Shown: positions 2,131 to 20,536 of the stretch, one piece after another
Layout of the letters: every line of letters begins with the position of its first letter
Position numbering within the stretch: the stretch's first letter is position 1
Assembly: GCA_001642005.1 (NCBI GenBank)
Contig: LWCA01000686.1
Span: forward strand, 1 to 20,621
DNA: 20,621 nucleotides
Origin: Intoshia linei
Taxonomy: Eukaryota; Orthonectida; Rhopaluridae
Direction of reading: 5' to 3'
Notes under the pieces: model-generated
Databases searched by the model: none
What the model was told of the DNA's origin: nothing
What the model saw: only the letters and a program-made list of their open reading frames with translations
Position numbers and translations under genes: made by a program

Positions 2131-2219
2131 GTGTAAATAATTTGAAAAATAAATATTTGACAAATGTAGGAAAATAAATATTTACGTATGAATTTCAATA
2201 ACCTACATTAAATATAAAA

Positions 2220-3971
2220 ATGTCAGATATATCTGAAAATTCAGAATATACCATTGAACTAATAATAAAATTTATAAACACTCCAATAATAGACAATTAC
2301 GGTGAGTACAAAATCTTTTTCTCATTTTATCAACTGAACTTTGAAAAAGTCAAATGGGAATACATTATGTCTTCCGAATTGACGCCCCAAGCTTCTCAGA
2401 TAAATTTCAATAAAAGGATTGATTACAAATATATTTTTAATAAAATACAAGAATGTCAAATAATAATGCATTATGGTGATTATACCAAGAATGTTAAAAT
2501 CGGAAAATACGCATTTAAAATGGGCGATGTAATATACGAGCGTGATGATGTACCAAAAGCATTAAATCTCTTGGAAAATGATTTGATTAGTGAACTAAAC
2601 GTGGGTGCAATTATTATTGAGACACTCACGAAAAATGCACACACATACTTTATGAACTTGTCCGTGTATATAGATCTACCTGTCGAAATGGAAAGTCAAT
2701 TAAAAAGTAAAGTAAAATTGTCCTTTTCAAGAAAAAACTCTAGGGACGAGTATGAAAGAATAAATACTTTCGAATCTCTTTCCTCTAAAAAAAGATGGAA
2801 TATCAAATTAAACTCTGATATTCTTTGTAACAATAATATGGATGAAACACTACAAGTTGAAATTATTTACCAAACTCATAATCCAACAATATATACCAGT
2901 TTTATGAAATTGGGCTACTTTATTAACGCATGGACGAAAAAAACAAGAAATAGCGTTAGTAGTATAATTGGCGAGGAAGATTTACAAAGTGACTCTTATG
3001 GGGTAGGTGATAGTGGGAATAACGACGAAAGAAATAAGAAGAAGTTTTCTTTTAATTTGTCCAAAAAAATAAAATTAAAAAAACAGTTCAGTAAATTGAA
3101 ACACATCGGATATAAAAGCATGGAGAATGCAGACATGCAGTTCAGTCTTTATAATAAAAGTTCCGTTAAAGTCAACGGTATAGCTTTAAAAGTTGGCATT
3201 GTAAATCTTGTAAAGACAAATTGCTTTTTAGACGTTCTTTCAGATCTGGATTTAATTTTATTCGATTGTATAGATTTCACTTCGTCCACGAAATTGGTTC
3301 ACAATATTGATGTTTCAAATAACCAAATTCTAGCAGCCATTACTGAAACGACAAATATATTGATGCAATATAACTATGACAAGTACGTTGAATGTTATGG
3401 ATTTGGTGCCAAAGTGAGGGGCTGTAACAATGTCTCAAACTGCTTTCCAATAAACCCGAGCGACCCTCTTTGTGAAGGTATTAAAGGCCTCACAGATTCT
3501 TATTTGAAATGTCTTACTTCCATTCAACTCAAAGATACACACTCTATATGCCCAGTAGTCAATAAAACCGTAGCATGTGCTATACTTTATCACAAAAAAA
3601 ACATTTTAAATGCGGCAAGTAAAACTTACCAAAACTCTTGTCTGACCTATACCGTTCTACTCATATTTTTACATCATGATTTTGCTAATATTAAAGATTT
3701 TGTTAGTTTAATTGTTGACATTTCTCATTTACCCATTTCTATTATTATTATGGGCGTCGGAGACGGTCCATTCATTATTATGAACATGTTTGCCTTGAAA
3801 AAATCTAGACTTTCTTTTAAAGGACAGTCAGCTGTCAGAGATATGGTTCAATTTGTAACGTATCCTATTGAAACTGATAATTTAACCTTTCAAAAAGCCG
3901 TAGCCAATGTACCTCGTCAAATTATATCTTATATAAACATACATGGCATTAAACACAACAAATACGTGTAA
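2220..3971 (+). CDS. Copine-family protein (divergent C2-C2-vWA), single exon
   Basis: This 583-residue intronless ORF is close to the usual copine length. Copines are cytosolic proteins that dock on membranes through two Ca2+-dependent C2 domains and bind partners with a C-terminal von Willebrand A (copine) domain. Residues about 8-120 and 127-240 fit degenerate C2A and C2B folds; the acidic Ca2+-binding loop residues expected of copine C2 domains are mostly not visible. Residues 265-300 form a Lys/Ser-rich linker. The copine domain spans about 302-578. It has VNGIALKV near 318-325, the MIDAS motif DFTSS at 352-356 (copines have DFTAS), GFGAK at 394-398, VLLIF at 479-483, LPISIIIMGVG at 504-514, VRDMVQF at 539-545 and a terminal ISYINIHGI. 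The usual ITDG of the third MIDAS loop is replaced by FLHH (483-486), losing its aspartate. The start ATG has the context AAAAATGTC with upstream stops. Family assignment is strong; Ca2+ and metal binding are doubtful. Confidence 0.9.
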   Translation: MSDISENSEYTIELIIKFINTPIIDNYGEYKIFFSFYQLNFEKVKWEYIMSSELTPQASQINFNKRIDYKYIFNKIQECQIIMHYGDYTKNVKIGKYAFKMGDVIYERDDVPKALNLLENDLISELNVGAIIIETLTKNAHTYFMNLSVYIDLPVEMESQLKSKVKLSFSRKNSRDEYERINTFESLSSKKRWNIKLNSDILCNNNMDETLQVEIIYQTHNPTIYTSFMKLGYFINAWTKKTRNSVSSIIGEEDLQSDSYGVGDSGNNDERNKKKFSFNLSKKIKLKKQFSKLKHIGYKSMENADMQFSLYNKSSVKVNGIALKVGIVNLVKTNCFLDVLSDLDLILFDCIDFTSSTKLVHNIDVSNNQILAAITETTNILMQYNYDKYVECYGFGAKVRGCNNVSNCFPINPSDPLCEGIKGLTDSYLKCLTSIQLKDTHSICPVVNKTVACAILYHKKNILNAASKTYQNSCLTYTVLLIFLHHDFANIKDFVSLIVDISHLPISIIIMGVGDGPFIIMNMFALKKSRLSFKGQSAVRDMVQFVTYPIETDNLTFQKAVANVPRQIISYINIHGIKHNKYV

Positions 3972-6319: not shown

Positions 6320-7077
6320 TACATCTTATTTATCCTCTATGAAAAAAGTTTAAGAACCACTCCTTTAAAGGATTGATAATAGTGAATAGTATCATTTTTA
6401 AGTGCCATTTTATGGAATTTATTTTTTTAGTAGAATTAAAAATGTTCACCCTAGGTAGAGCTAGTTGCTGTTGGTACGAAGAACATAACAGCAAGCTAGT
6501 TTTTATATATAAGTAAGAATTAATTAATTATGGTCATATGCAGATTTTCCTAGAAATTCGCATTAAAAGTACAATTATAATTGTAATTTGAAGTTAATTA
6601 AATTGTAATAAAACAAAAGCCTCATTAGAACTACTGTTTATGCAAAGTTCATAAAAGACCAGCAAGTTTTTAGTTTTAAAGGAAATATAATCTATATTCA
6701 AATTAGTAGTTTTCAGGCCCAATGAAAAAATTACCGGTTGGACGTAAAGTATACGATTTTATCAATTATAGAATTTACTGTAAATAGGACTATATTCTGG
6801 ACTAACTGATATATAATTTATAATTATTATTTTTGAAGATTACGGTCTAGTTTCCACGTAATGAATCAAATCTATCGGATAATAATAAAAGGCATTTATC
6901 CGTTCTTTAAGTGAAATCTAATTTTAATTAAGAAACAGTTATAAACCATTTAAAAGATACTCCAGTTATAATCCATAGTCACTGATGCACAGATTATGGA
7001 CCAATTGACAATGTTATGATTGTCAGTAAAATTTTGACAAAGTCAACTTAAATTGATGATATATATGTATATTTAAA
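6320..7077. other. Intergenic tract with a small hairpin
   Basis: There is no supported gene. A hairpin is formed by CTAGTTGCTGTT (6461-6472) and AACAGCAAGCTAG (6487-6499), with one bulge. A related tract (GAGCTAACTGCTGTTTGTAC) occurs near 11949-11968, suggesting a dispersed repeat. At 6340-6357 the minus strand reads GGAGTGGTTCTTAAACTT, like a hAT end of the GTGGTTCTCAAAC type. The 3' end of the LRRC49-like transcript presumably lies in this tract. Confidence 0.4.
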
Positions 7078-10000
7078 TTATACCGTTACATCATTTATTT
7101 TTTGTAATTTGAAATCTTGTCCATATCGCTTGATAAGTTTTTCATTAAAGATGATGGTGTAATTTGAATTATCATTTTTTTTTAATTTTCCGTCATTCAA
7201 CTTGACAAATGATTCATTTTTAGGTAAATAATGAATATTATCTTTAATAAAAAAATATTGATTTGTTGCAATCAAAAAATATCGCCATTGATTGTATGAA
7301 ATTGAGCATTTTTGATTCAAATGCATTGTAAATTCTATACTAATGTTGCAAAAATAGTTGAATCTTGCCAGGTTGACAATTTCCACCAGATTTTCAATGT
7401 TTGATGACACGATACTAATAGTCTAGGAATAAAAATGACATTGTACAATAGTATTAATAGTATTACATCTACAGAATTTGTTCGATTTATTAAAAATGAT
7501 ATTATATTCAATACATGTTTAATCGGTGTGTAGTTGCATACAATTTTTTTTAGTACAGGTAAACAGGTTTTGATGGGCAGTTTATTTATTAAAGTCAACG
7601 GTACGATTCCGTAAATAGATAGAGTGGTTGTGTTTATCACTTCTGCTACATAAGACGTACCGATGATTCTACTAGACTTGTTTTCATTATTAATATACGA
7701 TACAAACTTTTTCTTGTGCAAATTCAATACATTAATATTTTTGAATCCCATGCGGCCATTTAGACCGTGTTTATCCATATTAGATTTCAATTTGTCGATT
7801 ACACGTATTTTTTTCTAGAGGTTAATACTTTTTAATTTAAAATTGTTTTTACCTCGATGTACGATTTTTTCTGAATGATTTGTTCGTCAATGAAACAATT
7901 TCTCTTAAATATTTTGATGCATAATCTGCGCTCATCTTCCTATAACACGTTTTATTAATTTCAATCTGAGAGAAGGGAGCAGAGACCATTGCACTCCGTC
8001 GTAAGACTTCGTCAACAAAGTTTTACAATTTTTAATGTAACGCCGGACCAATGCCGAACCCACTGTACCCCGTGACCCTCTTCAAGCCCCTCATTTTTGA
8101 ATTAAACATGAATTGAATTGAGCATTAAAAAAATTATATTATTGAATATCATAACTATTTTGTGTGTTAAATTTAAAATATCAAGTCAAGACATAAAAGA
8201 GGTCGTTAGGGCTATATGACACTATGCATTGTTTGTGAAAAATTTTTAGGGGCTTAGGGATAAAACTTTTAGGGAATTTTTGGATGATCTCGATCTAGGT
8301 AGACTCGGCTCTGTGTTGCACGACCCCACCAATCCAGATTCTTACGACCTTAATTGGTTGGATTTTTCAAAAAAAATATTGGTTAAAGGGGATTGGTAGG
8401 GATTCCTTAAGGACTGGTAAAATTAATTTTTTCCTTTTGGTGTACGATAGAGGGATTTTGGATCTAAAAGGTTGATAAAATTGGATTTTTCAATAAATAT
8501 TGGTAAAAAAGGATTGGTAGGGATTCTTAAGGGTTGTAAAATTTTGATTTTTTCTTATAAGATTTTACTAAATTGAATGATTGAATAAAATATGCTAAAA
8601 ATTTATTATTCATCCCAATCATCTAAAATTTTTGTATTCACCCCTCATAAAATTATTGACCCTTGGGTGACTGGTCACCCATGAAAATCACTGGTGTAGT
8701 GTATAAATTTCGTAATTTGTACCGTTATTATTTTTTTGTCGAGAACTTTGATTCTCTTGAAAATGTTGACAACAGTAGAACGATAGTTTTTAGTATTAAT
8801 GATTTTGTTCCCACTCAAAGAAAGCGTTTCCAATCTATGACATTTATGGAGACCTTGGATTTGCTCCATTCTAAATTGTGTCATTGAAAATGTAATTTGA
8901 TTTTACAATCAGAGACGTTTTAAAGCATGGGCAATATGGGCTGTAGCCCAGGGCCCCTCATTAAAAAAGGCTCCTCAAATTAATAAAAGTACTTACATTT
9001 ATATCTTAAAAAAAGGCCTCCAAATTAATAAAAGTACTTTATATTTATATCTTAAAAAGAGGCCCCCAAATTAATAAAAGTACTTACATTTATATCTTAA
9101 AAAAAAGCCTCCAAATTAATAAAAGTACTTTACATTTATATCTTAAGAATCAGTTTATAAGTTTTGAAGTTTATTGAAGTTTGAACTTTTTCTAAACTAA
9201 AAATAATTAAGAATGAACTTCGAAATTGCTTAGCTCAATCTCGTTTGAATGCTCTCTCCTTAATGTCAATTGAGAATGATATCAGTTTTTATATCATATC
9301 TGATTTCTCTCAGAAAAAAGTGAGAAAACAACATTTGTGAAGAATTGTCAAGAATTTTTTGTGACTGCATGGTGCATATTTTCAAATGAAAAAGTAAACT
9401 TTGTTCATTAATTAATGTAAGTAGGTTTTTGTAAAATAAATAAAAGTTACTAGAAACCTACATAATATTTTTTAATGCTCTTATTAATACTCAATAAAAT
9501 AAAACTCTAAGTCTCCAACCAACAGTATGCCCTGTCTTCTAAACAGGGGACCTAATTTTTTTTATCGCTTCGCTCAAAATTTTAAAGGGCCCGGCCTTTT
9601 GCTTAGCCCAGGGCCCCGAAGTGGCTTAAGACGGCTCTATTTACAATTAAAAATTAAAATTACAAGTGAAAATTGTTCATCGATAAATAGACTAGTTTAA
9701 GTTTTGATGGAACAGTATTTTCATTCTAAAAATTATAAAACATAAATATTAAAATTTACAATTTTAGTAATATAATTGTGATTAAGATTCAGTTGCGTTA
9801 AATTATCCAATTTTTTCAAAGAATCTCCCAATGAATTTGTAGTCAATCTATTATTAGCCAAATTTAGAATATTCAAATTTGTTAATGTGTCCATTTTATC
9901 AATTTTTGATATCTATTATTAACTATAATATATAATCACTTTGTTCATTATTACTTCATTATTGTGGACATCAAGTATCTGCAGATATTTTAAAGATTGG

Positions 10001-10504
10001 AGTTGTTTTAAATGTTTAATTCTACATTAAACATTAATTACGATGGACATTAAAAAATGTTCAAATAAGTGGAAATTTTACTTGTTGTTTGATAAAATCA
10101 AAACTCGCAAATTGACAATGTTGGAAAAAACTTGAACATTGTCAATATTATTGGTACACAAATCCATTATTATTAAATTATTATAATTTGACATCTCTCT
10201 AATTCCACTAATTTTGTTACATTGTGCCGATATAAATTTTATTTTGTTGTCCGCTGGGAATATTGGTAATTTTAATAATCCTAATCTATCAAAATTCAGA
10301 CTTTCTCCATTTTCTTTGTTTGTAGTTTTGTCGTTACATGTTAGAGGGCGAATGTATCCGGAATTGATAATTTCAATTTTATTTGCTTCTATTTGTTTAT
10401 TTATGAATATTTATGACCCATATTTATAATTATTATAATTTACGTAAGTTTTCATGTATCAATTCCTTATATACCCTATTTGCATATTTACGTTTTTCAA
10501 TTTT
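7078..10504 (-). CDS. LRRC49: LRRC49-like leucine-rich repeat protein (tubulin polyglutamylase complex regulator), nine exons, 5' end missing
   Basis: I assembled nine minus-strand exons: 10504-10444, 10388-10082, 10021-9955, 9912-9760, 9725-9664, 8870-8723, 7939-7853, 7814-7473 and 7422-7078. All eight introns are GT-AG and keep phase, giving about 523 residues. Six to seven leucine-rich repeats follow one another (LIIMDLCTNNI, LRVLILSNNKI, LQILDVHNNEI, LNILNLANNRL, LTQLNLNHNYI, LKLVYLSMNNF, LETLSLSGNKI). A cap motif follows (KNYRSTVVNIFKRIKVLDKK), then ITEDERR, matching the RITEEERR of LRRC49. Past it, SYVAEVINTTTLSIYG fits the family's YLVEVDGDTLSLYG, and NQWRYFLIAT fits its FTLWKYY region. 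In vertebrates LRRC49 acts at centriolar satellites with the TTLL1-containing polyglutamylase complex. This protein ends about 130 residues earlier than the human one. The first coding exon is not found upstream of 10504. Intron sizes are 55, 60, 42, 34, 793, 783, 38 and 50 nt. Confidence 0.85.
7940..8722 (-). other. Expanded intron of the LRRC49-like gene (783 nt), probably transposon-filled
   Basis: This intron joins ...KVLDKKIIT to EDERR, with donor ACG|GTACAA at 8722 and acceptor TTATAG at 7940. It is more than ten times longer than most introns of the gene. Near its 5' end, on the minus strand from 8693, the sequence reads CAGTGATTTTCATGGGTGAC, a possible hAT end, which includes a palindrome GGGTGAC-TG-GTCACCC (8665-8680). 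The block 7980-8110 is locally richer in G and C than its surroundings. No target duplication was recognised. Confidence 0.55.
8355..8565 (+). repeat. Imperfect tandem duplication of about 120 bp
   Basis: TTGGATTTTTCAAAAAAAAT followed by ATTGGTTAAAGGGGATTGGT at about 8357-8398 recurs as TTGGATTTTTCAATAAATAT and GGTAAAAAAGGATTGGTAGG at about 8481-8522. Each copy continues into GGGATTC-TTAAGG and a TAAAATT-TTTTTC tract. It lies inside the 783-nt intron and is non-coding. Confidence 0.65.
8902..9647. mobile_element. Non-autonomous hAT element with perfect 8-bp target site duplication, inside an LRRC49-like intron
   Basis: The 8-bp sequence TTTACAAT occurs at 8902-8909 and again at 9640-9647, directly flanking a 730-bp element (8910-9639). 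The element starts CAGAGACGTTTTAAAGCATG and its complement starts TAGAGCCGTCTTAAGCCACT. Both ends then carry a GGGC...AGCCCAGGGCCCC block (8952-8957 and 9605-9617 on opposite strands). An 8-bp duplication with CAG-type ends is the hAT signature. No transposase is present. Removing the element plus one duplication (738 bp) leaves an intron of 55 nt, in line with the gene's other introns, so the insertion explains the intron's size. The insertion is intronic and leaves the splice sites intact. Confidence 0.9.
8969..9147. repeat. Four tandem 45-46 bp units inside the hAT element
   Basis: Units begin at about 8969, 9015, 9061 and 9106. Each reads GG(C/G)CTCC or GGCCCCC, then AAATTAATAAAAGTACTT, then ACATTTATATCTTAAAAA. 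Units 1 and 3 read ACTTACATTT, while units 2 and 4 read ACTTTAxATTT, so the array looks like a duplication of a two-unit block of about 92 bp. Confidence 0.85.
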
Positions 10505-12365: not shown

Positions 12366-15300
12366 TTATAAAAACATGTTGGAACTATCACATCCATTAA
12401 AGCTTATATTAATTATGCAGTCATATTTAATTCCAACACCCTTGAGAGTTTTAAACTGACTAATGATATCTTCATCCAATAATTTTCTTTTATAATACAA
12501 ACAAAAAGAATCGGATTGAATAGAATGGATATTCGAAATGAGCATTTTGAGTTGAAAAATTAGCATTGATTGAGATACTTCAATAATTATATTGTCTCTG
12601 AATATACTATACCGATCCATATTTTTTATACAAACGAAATAAGTTTTTTTAAAGACCATACGAGTAGTTGCTTCGCAATTGGGATTGTCTGTCAAAGCTG
12701 AGAGGTTTGGTAATTTAGCATACTGATGTTTTATATTTTCGCGGAATTTTAGAGTCTCTTTCCTACCTAGAGATAAATTTTTATTTTCAAATACGTCAAT
12801 TATACCCTGCAACGTGCAAAGCTTTTCTTCAGAAGATAATTTGTTTGTCAAAGTTTCTTTAAAAACCTTTCTAGTAAAAATGCTTTTACTACGATTGATC
12901 ATGGGTTCTTTCTCCTTTTTCTTTGGTTCCACGTCTTGTATAAAGTATTCGTCATTTTCACTATTATCTATAGAATTTTTTTCGGATGAGCTGGATCTTT
13001 CTTCGTCGCTAGCAACTTCTGTAATGGGTTGGGTTAGGGGATAGTGTATATTGTAAGAAGACAAAATTGCCCGAATTTTGTGAATCTTTTCACGTAGAAT
13101 AGTATTGGATATGTCCATTTTGTTTTCCTCCATTACATCGTATGTATTGATATCACACATGAATGTACTCATTGTATCGCTAACTCTTCTGTTCTTTAAT
13201 TTATACACTTCATCATATTCTTCATTTAAGCTATCATTGGGCAAACTTTTATTCATCACCATTTTTGTAATTTGCTTAGATGATAGACTTTTTTCCCTTA
13301 TTATACTTCCGTTCTTGGTAAAAGATTCATTAAAACTTTTTTCCTTGTTCAATTTGTTTGTCGTTTTACGTACATTCAATTTGGATAATGATTGACGTAT
13401 TTTGGATTTGATGGTGGCTCTATTCTGAGACGATTTAAAAGTTCCTTCTACGGATGATCCTGATTTAGATTTTTTACTTTTTTTGGTAACTATCGTGGTT
13501 GTAGATTGTTTCAAATCTTCAGGAGTATTATCTGGAGTAATTGCATTGGATGTAAATTTAGACCCGCTACGTTTAATCCTTGATCTTAAATCATCCATGC
13601 TAGGATTCACTAATGTATTGTTAAGGTTTTTGCTATTTTCATCGCATTTCACTATCCGCCACAAAACATATATGGCGGAAGACGTACTCAATATGTTTCG
13701 ATAGTCGTATTTATTTGAAGTTCCATAATTTTTTTCATAAAATTCTGATAATATCGTACTATTTGAAAGTATATACAATTTTATAGAAATATTTACATAA
13801 TCGTTCTTTCTGTCCTCTTCATTGAATATATACTGATGAGAAGGATGATTTTTGATTATATCAAAGTTTTTGTATCGAAAAAGTGATTTTACCGCATTTA
13901 TAAAGGATTTACACGTCAAGTATAACCGAGGAGATACCAAAGCACGTTCTCCATTTAATGTGGATATAACTATTAATGCAGCTGGCCATATATTTATAGA
14001 ATCAAGTTCCAATTTAGGTATTCGTATTCGTGTGTCTTTGATGCTTGAATCTGGTAATGCATCTATATGATCATTATGCTTTATCCCCAATTGATGAAAT
14101 GTTTTTGAGGTTAATGGTAGCTTTATGTCTTTACGGTAGATTAAACGTTTTGATTCCTTCCGTAATTGTTGTACAGCCGATAATAAAGTCATTGGTCGAT
14201 CGATCGATCTAATTTAAACAATTATAATGTAATCATTTAGTTTTTCGTTAATATAATATAGCAGGGGATCCCATACTTTTTTCAGGCGGACCGGTAGTAA
14301 ATAAAAAATTGAAATATATTTTTAAACATTTTAATGTATTTTTGTCCTTCTATTTTATCTAAATAGTGAAAAATATTCACCAATCCAGGGTGTATTACTT
14401 TTCGGAATATTTAGGTGCCGAATTTATTTATTTCACAAAGTAGATAATAATCCTTAATGATGACAACTAAACCAGTGTTTCTCAAAATTTTTTCATTGCG
14501 CGGACTTGGAAAAAAATGCTTGTTAAATGGCATATGTAATGTATGTCTAACGTTCAAAAGATGAAAATTATATTGCTGGTTCGCTAGTGTTCATTATCTA
14601 CAGCTAGTTGTTTTTAACTTCTAAAACTTTTTAGTGTTATATTAGTTTTATAATACAAATAATGTATATGATAGTGCAGTGCACAAAGTGCACATATCAA
14701 ACTTTTAATTAATTTAATATGGTAATTTTTTTTTATGTATAGTATCTATACAATAGATGCAAATATGGTAAAAACAAACCATTTTATTGCGCACATGCCT
14801 TCCCATATATAATGTAATAAACTTTTATTATATTGAATGGAACATAAGTTAAGTGTTATAAAATGTCGAAATAATATCATTAATTCTTTTTATTTATTAA
14901 TTTAACCTTTTTAAACTAATGAATTAAATTTTGAATTAAAATAAAATTGAAAATAGAGTTAGATTATAAAAAAAATGTGGATTAAGATAAAATTAAATAG
15001 TAAGATGGAGATATTGAAGTGTACTTATATTTTACAATAATTGAGTTTATATGGTAGTAAAAATAAAGTTGAACTTTAGCTTTAATTTACTTTTTTAGGT
15101 AAATGTCTCCCAGCCTAAATGACAACAATTTCAAATTTAACAATATTTGTGCTGTATTTTTTAACTCAAATAATATCCGTTTTTTTTTTAATGAAATTTA
15201 TATTGAGTATTAAAGATTTTATTTTTCCTAGCATACTAGCTGTCGCTGACTGTAAAACATAAAATATATAAAAATAACATAAAATTAATAGTAGTAAATT

Positions 15301-18300
15301 TCCTCAATTGTGAGTAATTCCATCTTCCAACAAATACTGATTTATCATTTTACTTCTTAATATTAGATTTTTTAATTAGTGAAACAGTCTAGTGAGATGC
15401 AAAAGTTTTGACAATATGTGACTTATGTGCGTTTGGAAATTTATCAAAAATATCAAATATTATTAAATGTAAATGTAAATTTTAATCTAAAATTTTAAGT
15501 TTGTAAAAACATATATGTGAGCGCCGAACCTACCAAACTGATGGTCACCGCCGAAAGCCAAAATTTTTTCCCTTAAAAAAATTAAATTAAATGTCATATC
15601 ACTCAAGCCACACCTCCAAGACTCTTGATTGACACATATTAACACGTATACCAGCGTTTCATAAATGCTAAATTTTATAATTTATTACCGGTCCGCCGTC
15701 AAAAAAGTGTGGGTACCGCTGATCTATACTATTCACAATGGTATATTACACACCAATATTACTTTTTTTTAATTCTCAATTTAACACAAATTTCATGGAG
15801 ACCCGAAGATGGTATCTCGGTACGGTAAGTTGGTCGCTATATAAATGTAAATCCTCAGACCTAAAAAGCTAGTTTCTATTTGTAATAAGTATGTAATCGG
15901 CTAGCTAGTATATTGATATTTTAATAATATATACAAATTTAATATAAACTACATTATGTATTATTATGTAAAAATATTAATTTTTCCTGGTTTTCTGGTA
16001 AAAGGATTCAAAAACACTGGTTTATGTAGACAACATAATATCCAAGTCATCTGTAAATGACGGTTAGTTAGTGTATATCAGGGACGCCCAACCTGTCGAT
16101 CGCCAAAATGAATTAAATTATTTTATTAATACTCGTTATCAAAATAATGTCTATTTTAAAATAGTTATTTTTAATATTGTTAAAATTAAATTTAAAATAA
16201 TATTTGGATTAGTTCACTATTTCTTAAACTAGGTTTTGGCGATAATTTTCAAATATACCGCGAAAGTACCTCGAATTATTCTGAATTTTAACTTTTATGT
16301 TTTCTACAATCATACTAAAAATATTTAGTTAACAATTGTTATTGTGTTCCGATCAGACACATTTTTCTAATCAATGTATTAGTTGATCGCCATTAATTGA
16401 AAATTTTTTAAGTCGATCGCATCAAAAAAAGGTTGGGTACCCCTTGTGCATAATATATTGAATACCTGATGAAAATCCGGACTGGGTATGTTTTTTCAAC
16501 CCATTATTTCAAAAATTAGTTCATGAATATGTAAAGATTTGTAAAATTACAACGCACAAAAAAAATTTGACTGCAAATCAATTGAGCAAAAAAAATTTGT
16601 TATAGACTGCGTTAAAAATTATTTTAAACATTTCTAATGGTTTTCCATATTTGAGTGCATTCTAATTTTATTTCATCATGCCGACCGAGGTAAATTTTTT
16701 AATTAATTTTCAACAAGTCTAGACTATAGACTCTACAATATATATTTCAGAGCCCAAAATATAACATATAAGCTGGAAGAACATCGTAAAATGATCAAGA
16801 TGAGAACGTGGGAAAAAGTTAATTTTAAATTAAGTACAAAAAACTAAAACTTAACCTAAAAAGTACAGAAAATACCTGGTTAAAATTAAAATTATACCTA
16901 AATTCAAACATGTATGTTGATTGATTTGTCAAATCGTTTTGCAGAGTGGTAATCGAAAGTATATTAGCATCTGAAAGAGCTTCATTGTTACTTTTAAGAT
17001 ACTCTCTTTTGTATATTTTTCCATAATCTGGATGATTTGGTGTGATTTCTGGGTTATAATTGGTGGTTTGGACAATTCGATAACAATAAAAAATGATTGA
17101 ACCATGCACAATACCCAGTTTGTATAAAATTCCATTTTTATTAGGCATTACCTGTCGATCTAGGAACAATCGTTCTCTTTCGACTTGTTCTCCAGAAACT
17201 ATGAATATTTTTTTCATTAACAATTTAACATTGCACAATTTAGAAATTCGAAACATGTATTGATTGCCACGCCTAGAATTATAAAAAACGACAATATTGT
17301 TACGAGCGTCGTCGCTCATAACGTTTTCATCAGTTTCTGATCGAAAAACACTTTTATGTAACAAGGTTTGAGATTCAATCATGTCTTCATTCGATTTCTT
17401 GTCAGATAATTTTTTAGACAATTTTTTTTTAACCTTTTCTTTAGTTTCACATTTTTTATTGTCAGATATATCCGAAGCTGATATCGATTGTGGAGGTGTC
17501 AAAATTGACCTATTATCGCCAAATGGATAAATTTCACAACACACTGAATAAACCATTGATCCTGTCACAATTTGATATTCTGCCAAACTCTTATTATCTT
17601 GTAGAATATGTTTGCCATAAACGAGTGTATTAATAGATTCCCTTATTTGCGTAATGTATCTAAATGCCTTTTTGACGGAATAAATGGATTTAGAAGCGTC
17701 AATTCTGATTGCAACAACATAAAAATCGTTCAATTTAGTGTCAATGGTATAAATTACGCGATTGAAGTTATTTGGCCAACAGGACAAGTCTTTGTCAAAA
17801 GTATTATTTTTAGTATATTTCAACATTTCGGAAGCGTATTCGTTTCGTACCTGATCATCGCATTTGTTGTAAATATCATCCACGTCGTTTGGAGAGTATT
17901 GAATATATTGTTTAGTTAAGATGAAGAAACAAATGGGCAAGGCCATTTCTTGAGAATTGTCTTGATCGTTTAAATTTCTCTTTTGTTTTGTTGCTTTTTT
18001 CAATTCATTGTCTTGATGAATATATAACCTCTCGTAAGCTGATTTGAAGAAGGATCTAATCATAACCGATACCAATATAACACATTCGCAATCAATAATT
18101 TTATAATCACACAATAGTCCGTATTGGTCAATCAACTCCACATTTGAGTCTTTGTTAGGCGTATTTGTTCTCATTATATGCAATTCTTGATAATGATGTG
18201 ATATTCCTGTACATTTGTGAATACATTTCATTAAATAAAAAATACTATCAGTGTCATCGATATTTATATAATCGCAGGTTAAATTGGGAGATACAATTTT

Positions 18301-18309
18301 CAAATGCAT
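12366..18309 (-). CDS. Large protein with tandem divergent ubiquitin-like domains, two exons
   Basis: Exon 1 is 18309-16898 and exon 2 is 14208-12366, giving 1084 residues. The donor is TTT-AG|GTATAA and the acceptor AAATTAG|ATCG, both phase 2. Ubiquitin-like folds are seen at about 1-84 (MHLKIVSPNL... to VILVSVMI), 197-261 (YVVAIRIDASKSIYSVKKAF, LVYGKHILQDNKSLAEY), 337-412 (ERLFLDRQVMPNKNGILYKLGIV) and 463-524 (STYMFEFRSIDRPMTLLSAV... LGIKHNDHIDALPD). The last is at about 995-1075 (IIIEVSQSMLIFQLKMLI, CLYYKRKLLDEDIISQF). A further degenerate one is possible at 548-660. Low-complexity Lys/Ser-rich linkers occupy about 285-335 and 690-800. None ends in Gly-Gly, so cleavage to free modifiers is unlikely; scaffolding or proteasome/ubiquitin-receptor roles are only guesses. 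The start is the ATG that begins strand 1 of domain 1. The frame stays open upstream to a TTTATTCAG acceptor at 18353, perhaps a 5'-UTR splice or trans-splice site. I recognise no orthologue. Confidence 0.75.
14262..15721. mobile_element. hAT-like non-autonomous element with inverted termini
   Basis: The left end reads CAGGGGATCCCATACTTTTT then GGCGGACCGGTAGTAAATAA. The right end, on the complement, reads CAGCGGTACCCACACTTTTT then GGCGGACCGGTAATAAATTA. These match over about 45-50 bp with a few differences. Flanks are TAATATAG and ATCTATAC, not an exact 8-bp duplication, so the insertion is old or rearranged. No transposase is inside. At 14473 another hAT-type end (CAGTGTTTCTCAAAATTTTT) suggests a nested insertion or a composite element. 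Confidence 0.75.
16079..16446. mobile_element. Short hAT-like MITE (about 370 bp)
   Basis: The left end is CAGGGACGCCCAACCTGTCG followed by ATCGCC. The right end on the complement is CAAGGGGTACCCAACCTTTT with GATGCGATCGAC further in. Both ends share CCCAACCT and a GATCG motif. Flanks (GTGTATAT left; GTGCATAA right if the element ends one or two bases earlier) agree at 6 of 8 positions, a possible decayed target duplication. It has no coding capacity. Confidence 0.6.
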
Positions 18310-18439
18310 GTCTCGCAAAAACTGGTCAAATTCAAAGATAACTTGAGAAAATCTGAATAAAGGTTATATCACATTTAATTAAGAAAATCAACTTATATTT
18401 CTCTTGTAGTTTTCAAATATCCCTTATTAACTGGTTTAT

Positions 18440-18628
18440 TTAACAATGATCAATATTTGTTTTACATGCATGTTCACAGGCATCATACTCAATATTATTG
18501 CAATATATTAATGATATATCGTACACACCATTTGTACACTTTAAACTGGTGGGTACGTAAAATTTACATTGTAAGTTGCAAATTTCATCGGACACATTTA
18601 TGTCAACATTTCTAAACAAACTTAACAT
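18440..18628 (-). CDS. Small cysteine-rich, Kazal-like protein or last exon
   Basis: The ORF has 62 residues with cysteines in the pattern C-x3-C-x9-C-x11-C-x7-C-x3-C near the end: ICNLQCKFYVPTSLKC, then TNGVYDISLIYC and NNIEYDAC. The segment C-T-N-G-V-Y...C...AC resembles the CGSDGVTYxNxC core of Kazal/follistatin-type domains, which are secreted protease-inhibitor or extracellular modules. The spacing is slightly off, however, and no signal peptide precedes it (start MLSLFRNVDINV). A secreted product would need an upstream exon; TTTAG just before AAATGTTGAC could be the acceptor. An AATAAA overlaps the stop region (complement of about 18436-18441). The family call is tentative. Confidence 0.4.
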   Translation of the reverse strand: MLSLFRNVDINVSDEICNLQCKFYVPTSLKCTNGVYDISLIYCNNIEYDACEHACKTNIDHC

Positions 18629-18990
18629 TTTAGAATGAGATATGACAGATTTTACATGAATAAAAAATTAATGAATCGCACACATAGTATAAAAGACTTT
18701 ACGGTCGAGATTCGTTGATATTAAACGGTAGAGATTAAATTTTTACATGTAATAAATATATTACGTAGTTAACCTTTCAACGTGACATTTAGCTTTTGTT
18801 TAAATATTAATAACTATTTTATGTTGTATTAATAAATTCCTGTATTATTCCTGTAAATAATATATGGATAGAATCCAATATATATCAAATTGAATGCGAT
18901 AAAATCTACCCTGTGTTTGATGTGAAAAAACTGAAATTTTTACGATAATTTAATATATATACGTAATATGTATATTATACAGTGTATAGG
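18629..18990. other. Intergenic tract with no recognised feature
   Basis: AT-rich sequence between the cysteine-rich ORF and the transposon end at 18991. I see no ORF, RNA gene or clear repeat. The minus-strand promoter of the cysteine-rich gene, or its missing first exon, could lie here. Confidence 0.35.
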
Positions 18991-20536
18991 GTGTCCACTA
19001 GGCTGGACACAATTTCAATATTTTTGAATTTCTTATGGGCCATTAGCCAGAAAGTTTCGTTTTGTTAAATTAACTTAAAATACAAAATTTTAACAAAATT
19101 TGAAAACTCTACGAGGTGCTCAAGGATACTGAATTTTAGTATACGATTTGTATACATAACTATGTATGAGTAGGATATACCGAGGATTTATCTTAGTTTT
19201 ATCATATTTAAAATAACATTGATTACGGAGACGTTCATTTTGGCGAAAACTATTGTGTTTAAATTATTACCAAAGGTTTGTAGGTGTGCCTAATTAAAAA
19301 AAATCCAATATTTTTGATATTTCGTAAATGTATAATAGCATGCAAAAAGCTAATATTGTTTCACTTTTCGAATTGATTAGAGCCCGAAGAGCTATAATTT
19401 AAAAAAATCTATCAGATGTTATACACACCGTTAAAAATTCAACAATTGTATTATCATAATCATCAGCTTTTTTCATGTCAAATTGCAGACAAAAATCTTT
19501 TTTAAAGAACTGAATATCTGAATTTATTTTATTTGTACAACAACCAATTCTTTGTTCAAAGCATGCATGCACATTGTTCTACAAGGAATGATAGAATTAG
19601 TGATTGTTTTTAGAATCGTTTGCATTTTACGTGATGAAGTTTCTGTCTTTATACATATTATTGTTATTATTATATTGTTACTAGATAATTTTGACTGTTC
19701 TCTACTATCAGCTAATTCAGTATTTTCAAAAACTTGATTATTGCAATTCAACTCTATCGAAATAGGTAGAGGTTTTTGAACTTGAAACGTATTTAATCGG
19801 TGTTTCTCTTTTAATTCGCGCTGCAATTGTAATTCCTTACGTTTTATTTTTTTTCATATTTACGACCAAATGCATTATCAAGTATACCAAACATCATCTT
19901 TCTTTTGTTTCTCTGATCACGTAAAAAACACAAGTCTTCAGGATGTGTACATATCAACTCGGCATTTATACGCGATATATCGAACAATTTATCAATTGTA
20001 TTAATGAAATTATCCTCACGTTATATTTGTGACTTACATCTCCTATTTTTATTCTTTTTTAATAAATTATAGCGTTTGCAGTATGTCTTTAACATATTTA
20101 CAAAAATCTTCCATCACATTGCCTATTATCCAAATATAATCCGCGGATCTTGTTAATACGTGCATTTCCAAAAAAAAACTTTATAATTTAAATTAATAAA
20201 GCTAGGCAAACTTAAAACCAATTTGAGCACTACATTAAAATTAATTTTGCTTCCTAAAATTTTGCATAGACATACGTATGAATCTGAAGAATAAAATTAG
20301 AGAATGGCCCATCAGAGAATATTAGTGAAAAAATATATATGACCATTCAAATTTTTTAACCAAAATGTCTAATTTTTTAGCTTTGCACGTCATTGAGCAC
20401 TTCTATGATGTTATTTTTTTTATGTAAAATTTGGCATGTGCGTATGTATTCATAAAATAAACAACATTATCGAAGGGCCTATCAAAAAATGTAAAAAAAA
20501 ATTTACTATGAAAATTGTGTCCACCCTAGTGTCCAC
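18991..20536. mobile_element. DNA transposon with inverted termini and decayed coding sequence
   Basis: The left terminus GTGTCCACTAGGCTGGACAC, followed by AATTTCAATATTTTT, matches the complement of the right terminus (GTGGACACTAGGGTGGACAC, then AATTTTCAT). A weaker correspondence continues to the inner GGGCC/GGCC boxes (19038-19042 and 20475-20479). Each terminus is itself nearly palindromic (GTGTCC...GGACAC). A 105-110 bp imperfect direct repeat is visible near the right end: AAAATTTTGCATAGACATAC... GAATGGCCCATCA at about 20257-20315 versus AAAATTTGGCATGTGCGTAT... GAAGGGCCTATCA at about 20425-20483. No target duplication was found, so the superfamily is undetermined. The interior carries the pseudogene at 19524-20095. 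Confidence 0.65.
19524..20095 (-). pseudogene. Decayed transposon-associated ORF
   Basis: From an ATG at 20095 the minus strand reads MLKTYCKRYNLLKKNKNRRC, an in-frame TAA, then EDNFINTIDKLFDISRINAE, LICTHPEDLCFLRDQRNKRK and MMFGILDNAFGRKYEKK. A run of eight A's at about 19847-19854 shifts the frame, and the reading continues as KRKELQLQRELKEKHRLNTF to the stop at 19524. Coherence across a nonsense codon and a frameshift argues for a once-continuous basic, helical protein. The FIxxIDxLFDIxxxNA...EDxxFLxxQR pattern reminds me of uncharacterised repeat-associated proteins in insects and hydra, from memory only. Its position inside the inverted-repeat element at 18991-20536 suggests it is that element's cargo, not a host gene. 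Confidence 0.55.

Follow-up and report, generated by a model that had tools for sequence, protein, structure and literature searches.

A predicted Intoshia linei protein with five diverged ubiquitin-like segments and no Gly-Gly ends

Integral ubiquitin-like (Ubl) domains usually occur one or two to a protein, beside a working domain. Several ubiquitin folds also share a chain in polyubiquitin, whose near-identical repeats follow one another directly and are cut apart after Gly-Gly, and in ISG15, a tandem Ubl protein with two Ubls that ends in Gly-Gly. OASL is described as combining two Ubls with an OAS unit (PMC6307210). For USP7 (HAUSP), the account in PMC4457826 gives a catalytic domain and five C-terminal Ubls, packed 12-3-45, which serve partner binding.

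The gene analysed here lies on the minus strand of a 20,621-nucleotide stretch of DNA from Intoshia linei (taxonomy: Orthonectida), referred to in its entirety as the window. Two exons encode 1084 codons and a stop, and the predicted product is basic (~126 kDa, pI 9.1). With USP7 it shares the number of five Ubls per chain. However, no peptidase was reported in the Intoshia protein, and its domains stand ~40 to 450 residues apart rather than being packed together. OASL likewise has more than one Ubl per chain and is the nearest PDB sequence to a profile of three of the Intoshia domains (a weak score, indicating likeness and not descent), but its Ubls number only two and follow the OAS unit, whereas the Intoshia protein has no OAS match. 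ISG15 entries are the PDB sequences nearest to the C-terminal domain (again weakly, and as likeness rather than descent), but ISG15 has two Ubls and a Gly-Gly end where the Intoshia protein has five and none. Polyubiquitin resembles it in carrying several ubiquitin folds per chain; in contrast, the Intoshia domains are spaced by linkers, lack Gly-Gly and match the first row of their alignments at 13-23% identity. The gene is real and somewhat unusual, and its product is a variant of the integral Ubl proteins.

Two stop-to-stop frames are present on the minus strand where the earlier note had placed two large ones, at 18363-16825 (512 codons) and 14213-12366 (615 codons). Both have a GC content of ~31%, at which we estimate that roughly 8% of random codons would be stops, and frames of this length are therefore far beyond chance. 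The features are as follows (window positions, all minus strand). Domain limits were placed by eye, after those of the earlier note, and leave-one-out counts are shuffles scoring as well as the segment.

16898..18309, minus: exon A, residues 1-470 plus two bases of codon 471 (open frame; deposited model fits the same end)
18052..18309, minus: U1, Ubl, residues 1-86 (weak Pfam matches; leave-one-out 2/3000)
17518..17751, minus: U2, Ubl, residues 187-264 (Pfam PF00240; PDB ubiquitin variants; leave-one-out 0/3000)
17062..17310, minus: U3, Ubl, residues 334-416 (leave-one-out 0/3000)
16898..16944, minus: first part of U4, residues 456-470 (exon join; the U4 profile signal is independent of it)
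14209..16897, minus: intron, 2689 bases, GTATAA...TTAG, repeat-rich (frame join; repeat matches in the genome)
16270..16314, minus: mini-exon of the deposited model, 45 nt, 15 residues (residue mapping and GT-AG; within a repeat)
12366..14208, minus: exon B, residues 471-1084 plus stop TAA (open frame; deposited model fits)
14025..14208, minus: second part of U4, to residue 532 (leave-one-out 5/3000; no Pfam match)
13605..14000, minus: residues 541-672, sixth beta-grasp candidate by eye only (unsupported)
12666..13604, minus: long Lys/Ser-rich linker, residues 673-985 (K+R 18%, S+T 22%, hydrophobic 27%)
12369..12665, minus: U5, C-terminal Ubl without a Gly-Gly end, residues 986-1084 (Pfam PF00240; leave-one-out 0/3000)

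The start ATG of exon A, at 18309, falls on the first strand of U1, with about 620-680 bases between it and an upstream repeat. This start is uncertain, because the deposited model carries exon A on to 18351. The junction TTTAG/GTATAA ... TTTAAATTAG/ATCG joins phase 2 to phase 2 and yields 1084 codons, in agreement with the matching-phase donor and acceptor proposed earlier; the deposited protein is compatible with both sites (its splice sites were deduced from residues and GT-AG). Ten GT sites occur in 17040-16827, five of them in the needed phase, and two of the nine AGs in 14260-14000 are in phase (14209 and 14044). The profile score of U4 was about equal with all five phase-compatible donors or with exon B alone, placing the signal in the exon-B half, which on its own was equalled by 2/3000 shuffles. 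Since profile scores do not separate the five donors, that at 16898 is favoured for its AG/GTATAA form and its agreement with the deposited model. The claim that the junction restores a domain is compatible with these data, but draws no independent support from the U4 score.

Evidence for the individual domains is uneven. Searched with the whole protein, Pfam PF00240 scored 38 bits against a cut-off of 25.4, with U2 as the best stretch, a match above cut-off that places the protein in the Ubl superfamily (PF00240 and kin). Taken singly, U2 (E 2e-5, 24.7 bits) and U5 (E 9e-4, 19.4 bits) matched PF00240 under the cut-off, U1 matched OTU1_UBXL (0.010) and Ubiquitin_2 (0.012), both under their curated cut-offs, and U3 and U4 matched no Pfam family, so that only one of U1, U3 and U4 had a Pfam match. 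Against the PDB, U2 found ubiquitin variants (E 0.0013), all seven matches of U5 were ISG15 (E 0.98-2), and none of the three matches of U1 was ubiquitin-like by name. In pairwise comparisons, U2 with ubiquitin, U2 with NEDD8, U1 with NEDD8 and U5 with ubiquitin stood above shuffled sequences (at most 8/500), the remaining ubiquitin and NEDD8 pairs doing so less or not at all; U4 against either protein and U1 against ubiquitin were at chance. Among U1 to U5 themselves, no pair was rarer than 14/500 shuffles. Single-sequence AlphaFold models gave pLDDT values of 30 (exon A) and 43 (U3) and are uninformative on a beta-grasp fold.

Profiles were more sensitive to what the domains have in common. 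A plain Ubl profile was built from 14 reference Ubls (11 of the 14 entered by hand) and each segment was compared with 5000 shuffles, of which 0 scored as well for U2, 0 for U5, 5 for U3, 56 for U1 and 175 for U4. The other five segments were matched by 581/5000 or more, but linker Lk1 by 44/5000, and U1 and U4 were thus no better than this linker. Because Lk1 had matched U1 in the plain profile, a leave-one-out design was adopted in which the sibling domains were added and the tested domain omitted (3000 shuffles each). The counts then fell to 2 for U1, 0 for U2, 0 for U3, 5 for U4 and 0 for U5, and 16 control segments run against the all-domain profile were null (five linkers at 434/3000 or more, 11 copine windows at 111/1000 or more). 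A profile of U1, U3 and U4 had a single match among 177,635 PDB sequences, 7sbi (E 0.033). This chain of 160 residues carries the name 2'-5' oligoadenylate synthase, and we take it to be the Ubl part of OASL; after reversal, the same sequences gave no match. The five-domain profile, containing no ubiquitin, reached PDB ubiquitin variants at 1.4e-7. It gave 194 matches up to E 10, and among the best 20 of these 18 carried ubiquitin or Ubl names, one was uncharacterised and one a methyltransferase; chloroplast ribosomal L20 was also among the best 60. The five segments named by the earlier note are thus all supported as Ubl-like by sequence statistics, U1 and U4 being the weakest, and a beta-grasp fold is presumed for each.

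The earlier note had allowed for five or more Ubls, but more than five are not supported: the sixth candidate, at residues 541-672, gained no backing from Pfam, profiles or the PDB. In the plain profile it was equalled by 3052/5000 shuffles, the leave-one-out test gave it no reported score, its five PDB matches (E 0.24-1) were unrelated, and neither residues 537-662 nor the long linker matched a Pfam family. Two further descriptions from the same source held. The linkers are rich in Lys and Ser, and from its composition the stretch 673-985 is probably disordered; moreover, Gly-Gly is absent from all 1084 residues, so that the domains lack the ends of conjugable Ubl modifiers and of polyubiquitin.

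The only database protein found was the NCBI hypothetical protein A3Q56_04908 of I. linei, with 99% identity along the full query. At 1705 residues, it differs from the 1084-codon model by the mini-exon, by 5' exons and by a leucine-rich repeat (LRR) run-on. Elsewhere in the genome, at least 64 pieces match the repeat around the mini-exon (40 of 94 candidates scored), and the mini-exon is probably not a real exon. The 5' exons, at 19835-19426, also sit in a repeat, with 35 further genome matches for 19400-20200; this repeat reaches about 18990-18930, and 38 further matches were found for 18310-19399. The run-on leaves exon B two codons before its stop through the donor AT/GTTTTTAT (GTTTTT), whereas all 7 donors within the LRR part, and that of exon A, start with GTA. 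We read these three additions as artefacts and, because of the repeat-borne exons and the non-GTA joining donor, favour two genes, one for a 1084-residue protein and one for the LRR protein. If the deposited model were correct, a Ubl array with a repeat-derived exon within U4 would be fused to a C-terminal LRR protein, the whole chain counting 1705 residues or more. The existence of the record and a frame kept across its joins speak for this, but the odd joining donor and the multi-copy repeats that hold its mini-exon and 5' exons, together with its omission of two LRR exons that we read near 9.7 and 8.8 kb, make it unlikely. That exons A and B are not spliced together at all, and belong to two genes or a broken one, is in our view very improbable. 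The intron of 2689 bases is exceptional beside a species median given as 57 bp (PMC6543705), the Ubl signal of U4 is confined to exon B, and exon B has its own ATG at 14192 (residue 477); however, repeats make up much of the intron, a start at 14192 would remove the front of U4, the phases agree at good splice sites, and the deposited model likewise joins the two exons. We therefore retain the two-exon gene. A protein search of the 34.65 Mb assembly for paralogues (E 10) returned only the gene's own two exons, and the locus is a genuine I. linei gene, single in the assembly. In the deposited model, two genes and some repeat-derived exons have probably been run together, so that anyone consulting the database would miss the Ubl protein.

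A whole-protein search of 5.8 billion proteins returned only itself among 7115 candidates, and U2 alone gave no candidate; the search needs shared 5-residue words, of which at most 100 were used. Literature on orthonectids with ubiquitin, or on the locus tag A3Q56_04908, yielded nothing on this protein, and we know of no animal protein with a matching multi-Ubl architecture. The papers listed give a weak hint that a five-Ubl architecture may be undescribed so far. Molecular evolution is reported to be rapid in orthonectids (PMC12249979), and missing relatives are therefore weak evidence of true novelty. The earlier suggestion that the protein may be lineage-specific accordingly stands insofar as the whole-protein (at most 100 words) and U2 searches found no relative, but fast orthonectid evolution may explain that absence. 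The gene could then be orthologous to a multi-Ubl protein already known and widespread in animals, but have diverged too quickly among orthonectids to be recognised. We think this somewhat unlikely: the evolutionary rate and the dependence on at most 100 shared words would favour it, but the protein found only itself among its 7115 candidates, no catalytic Pfam family was reported, and no matching animal architecture is known to us. A bolder reading, which we hold to be less likely than not, places the gene in an orthonectid-specific family: a scaffold of five Ubls alone, with neither an enzyme nor a conjugation module and with no counterpart among described animal architectures, that may have originated in a parasite of drastically simplified build or have changed there past recognition.

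As to function, no catalytic family was reported among Pfam matches up to E 10 (HMMER filters discard most matches above about 0.1); neither the USP catalytic family, expected of a USP7-type protein, nor the OAS family, expected of OASL, was among them. Doublecortin-type domains (DCDC1), considered because their fold is related, were set aside, no DCX family appearing in the Pfam matches. We judge the chances to be evenly balanced that the protein is a non-conjugable multivalent Ubl adaptor, in which five built-in diverged Ubls and their linkers present fixed docking surfaces. Lacking Gly-Gly ends, the domains would be neither released nor conjugated in the ubiquitin manner and, by analogy with integral Ubls elsewhere, might gather several partners; these could be the proteasome, Ubl-binding proteins of the p97 type or others, or partners outside the ubiquitin system. 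The ubiquitin-system scaffold proposed in the earlier note is likewise an inference. In the alignments, the residues equivalent to Ile44 are H, V, F, I and Y in U1 to U5, respectively. Classical ubiquitin-receptor binding by several of the domains is therefore doubtful, and some may bind partners unconnected with ubiquitin receptors. If the adaptor reading is right, a chain made up of five Ubls and long linkers, in which no other module was recognised, would represent a new build for a multivalent adaptor. It would have been retained in an animal described as having a few hundred cells and as missing many organ systems (PMC6543705).

Several other features were observed in the window. Within the intron, 32-nt inverted repeats (81% complementary) flank a repeat-rich part at 14277-15705, and many other genomic sites carry similar inverted-repeat ends; the element resembles a DNA transposon. 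The multi-copy repeat that holds the deposited 5' exons spans 18990-20103 (minus strand), with many copies 85-98% identical. Between it and the Ubl start lies a 62-residue Cys-rich ORF (18440-18628, minus strand), for which a Kazal-like reading was dropped as Pfam gave no match. The LRR gene lies downstream of the Ubl gene at 6840-10474 (minus strand). A protein search with it found 69 proteins (7994 candidates scored), with the region that follows the LRR core reaching no better than E 0.018 against any of these 69. Its identification as LRRC49 gained no support, the C-terminal part being at chance against an LRRC49 stretch entered by hand (z 1.0; 155/1000 shuffles as good). A putative intron of this gene holds a tandem array at 8961-9146, with a period of 46 or 91 and four or two copies. 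Further along, a single open frame at 2217-3971 (plus strand) encodes a copine-family protein (Pfam Copine, 1.9e-35).
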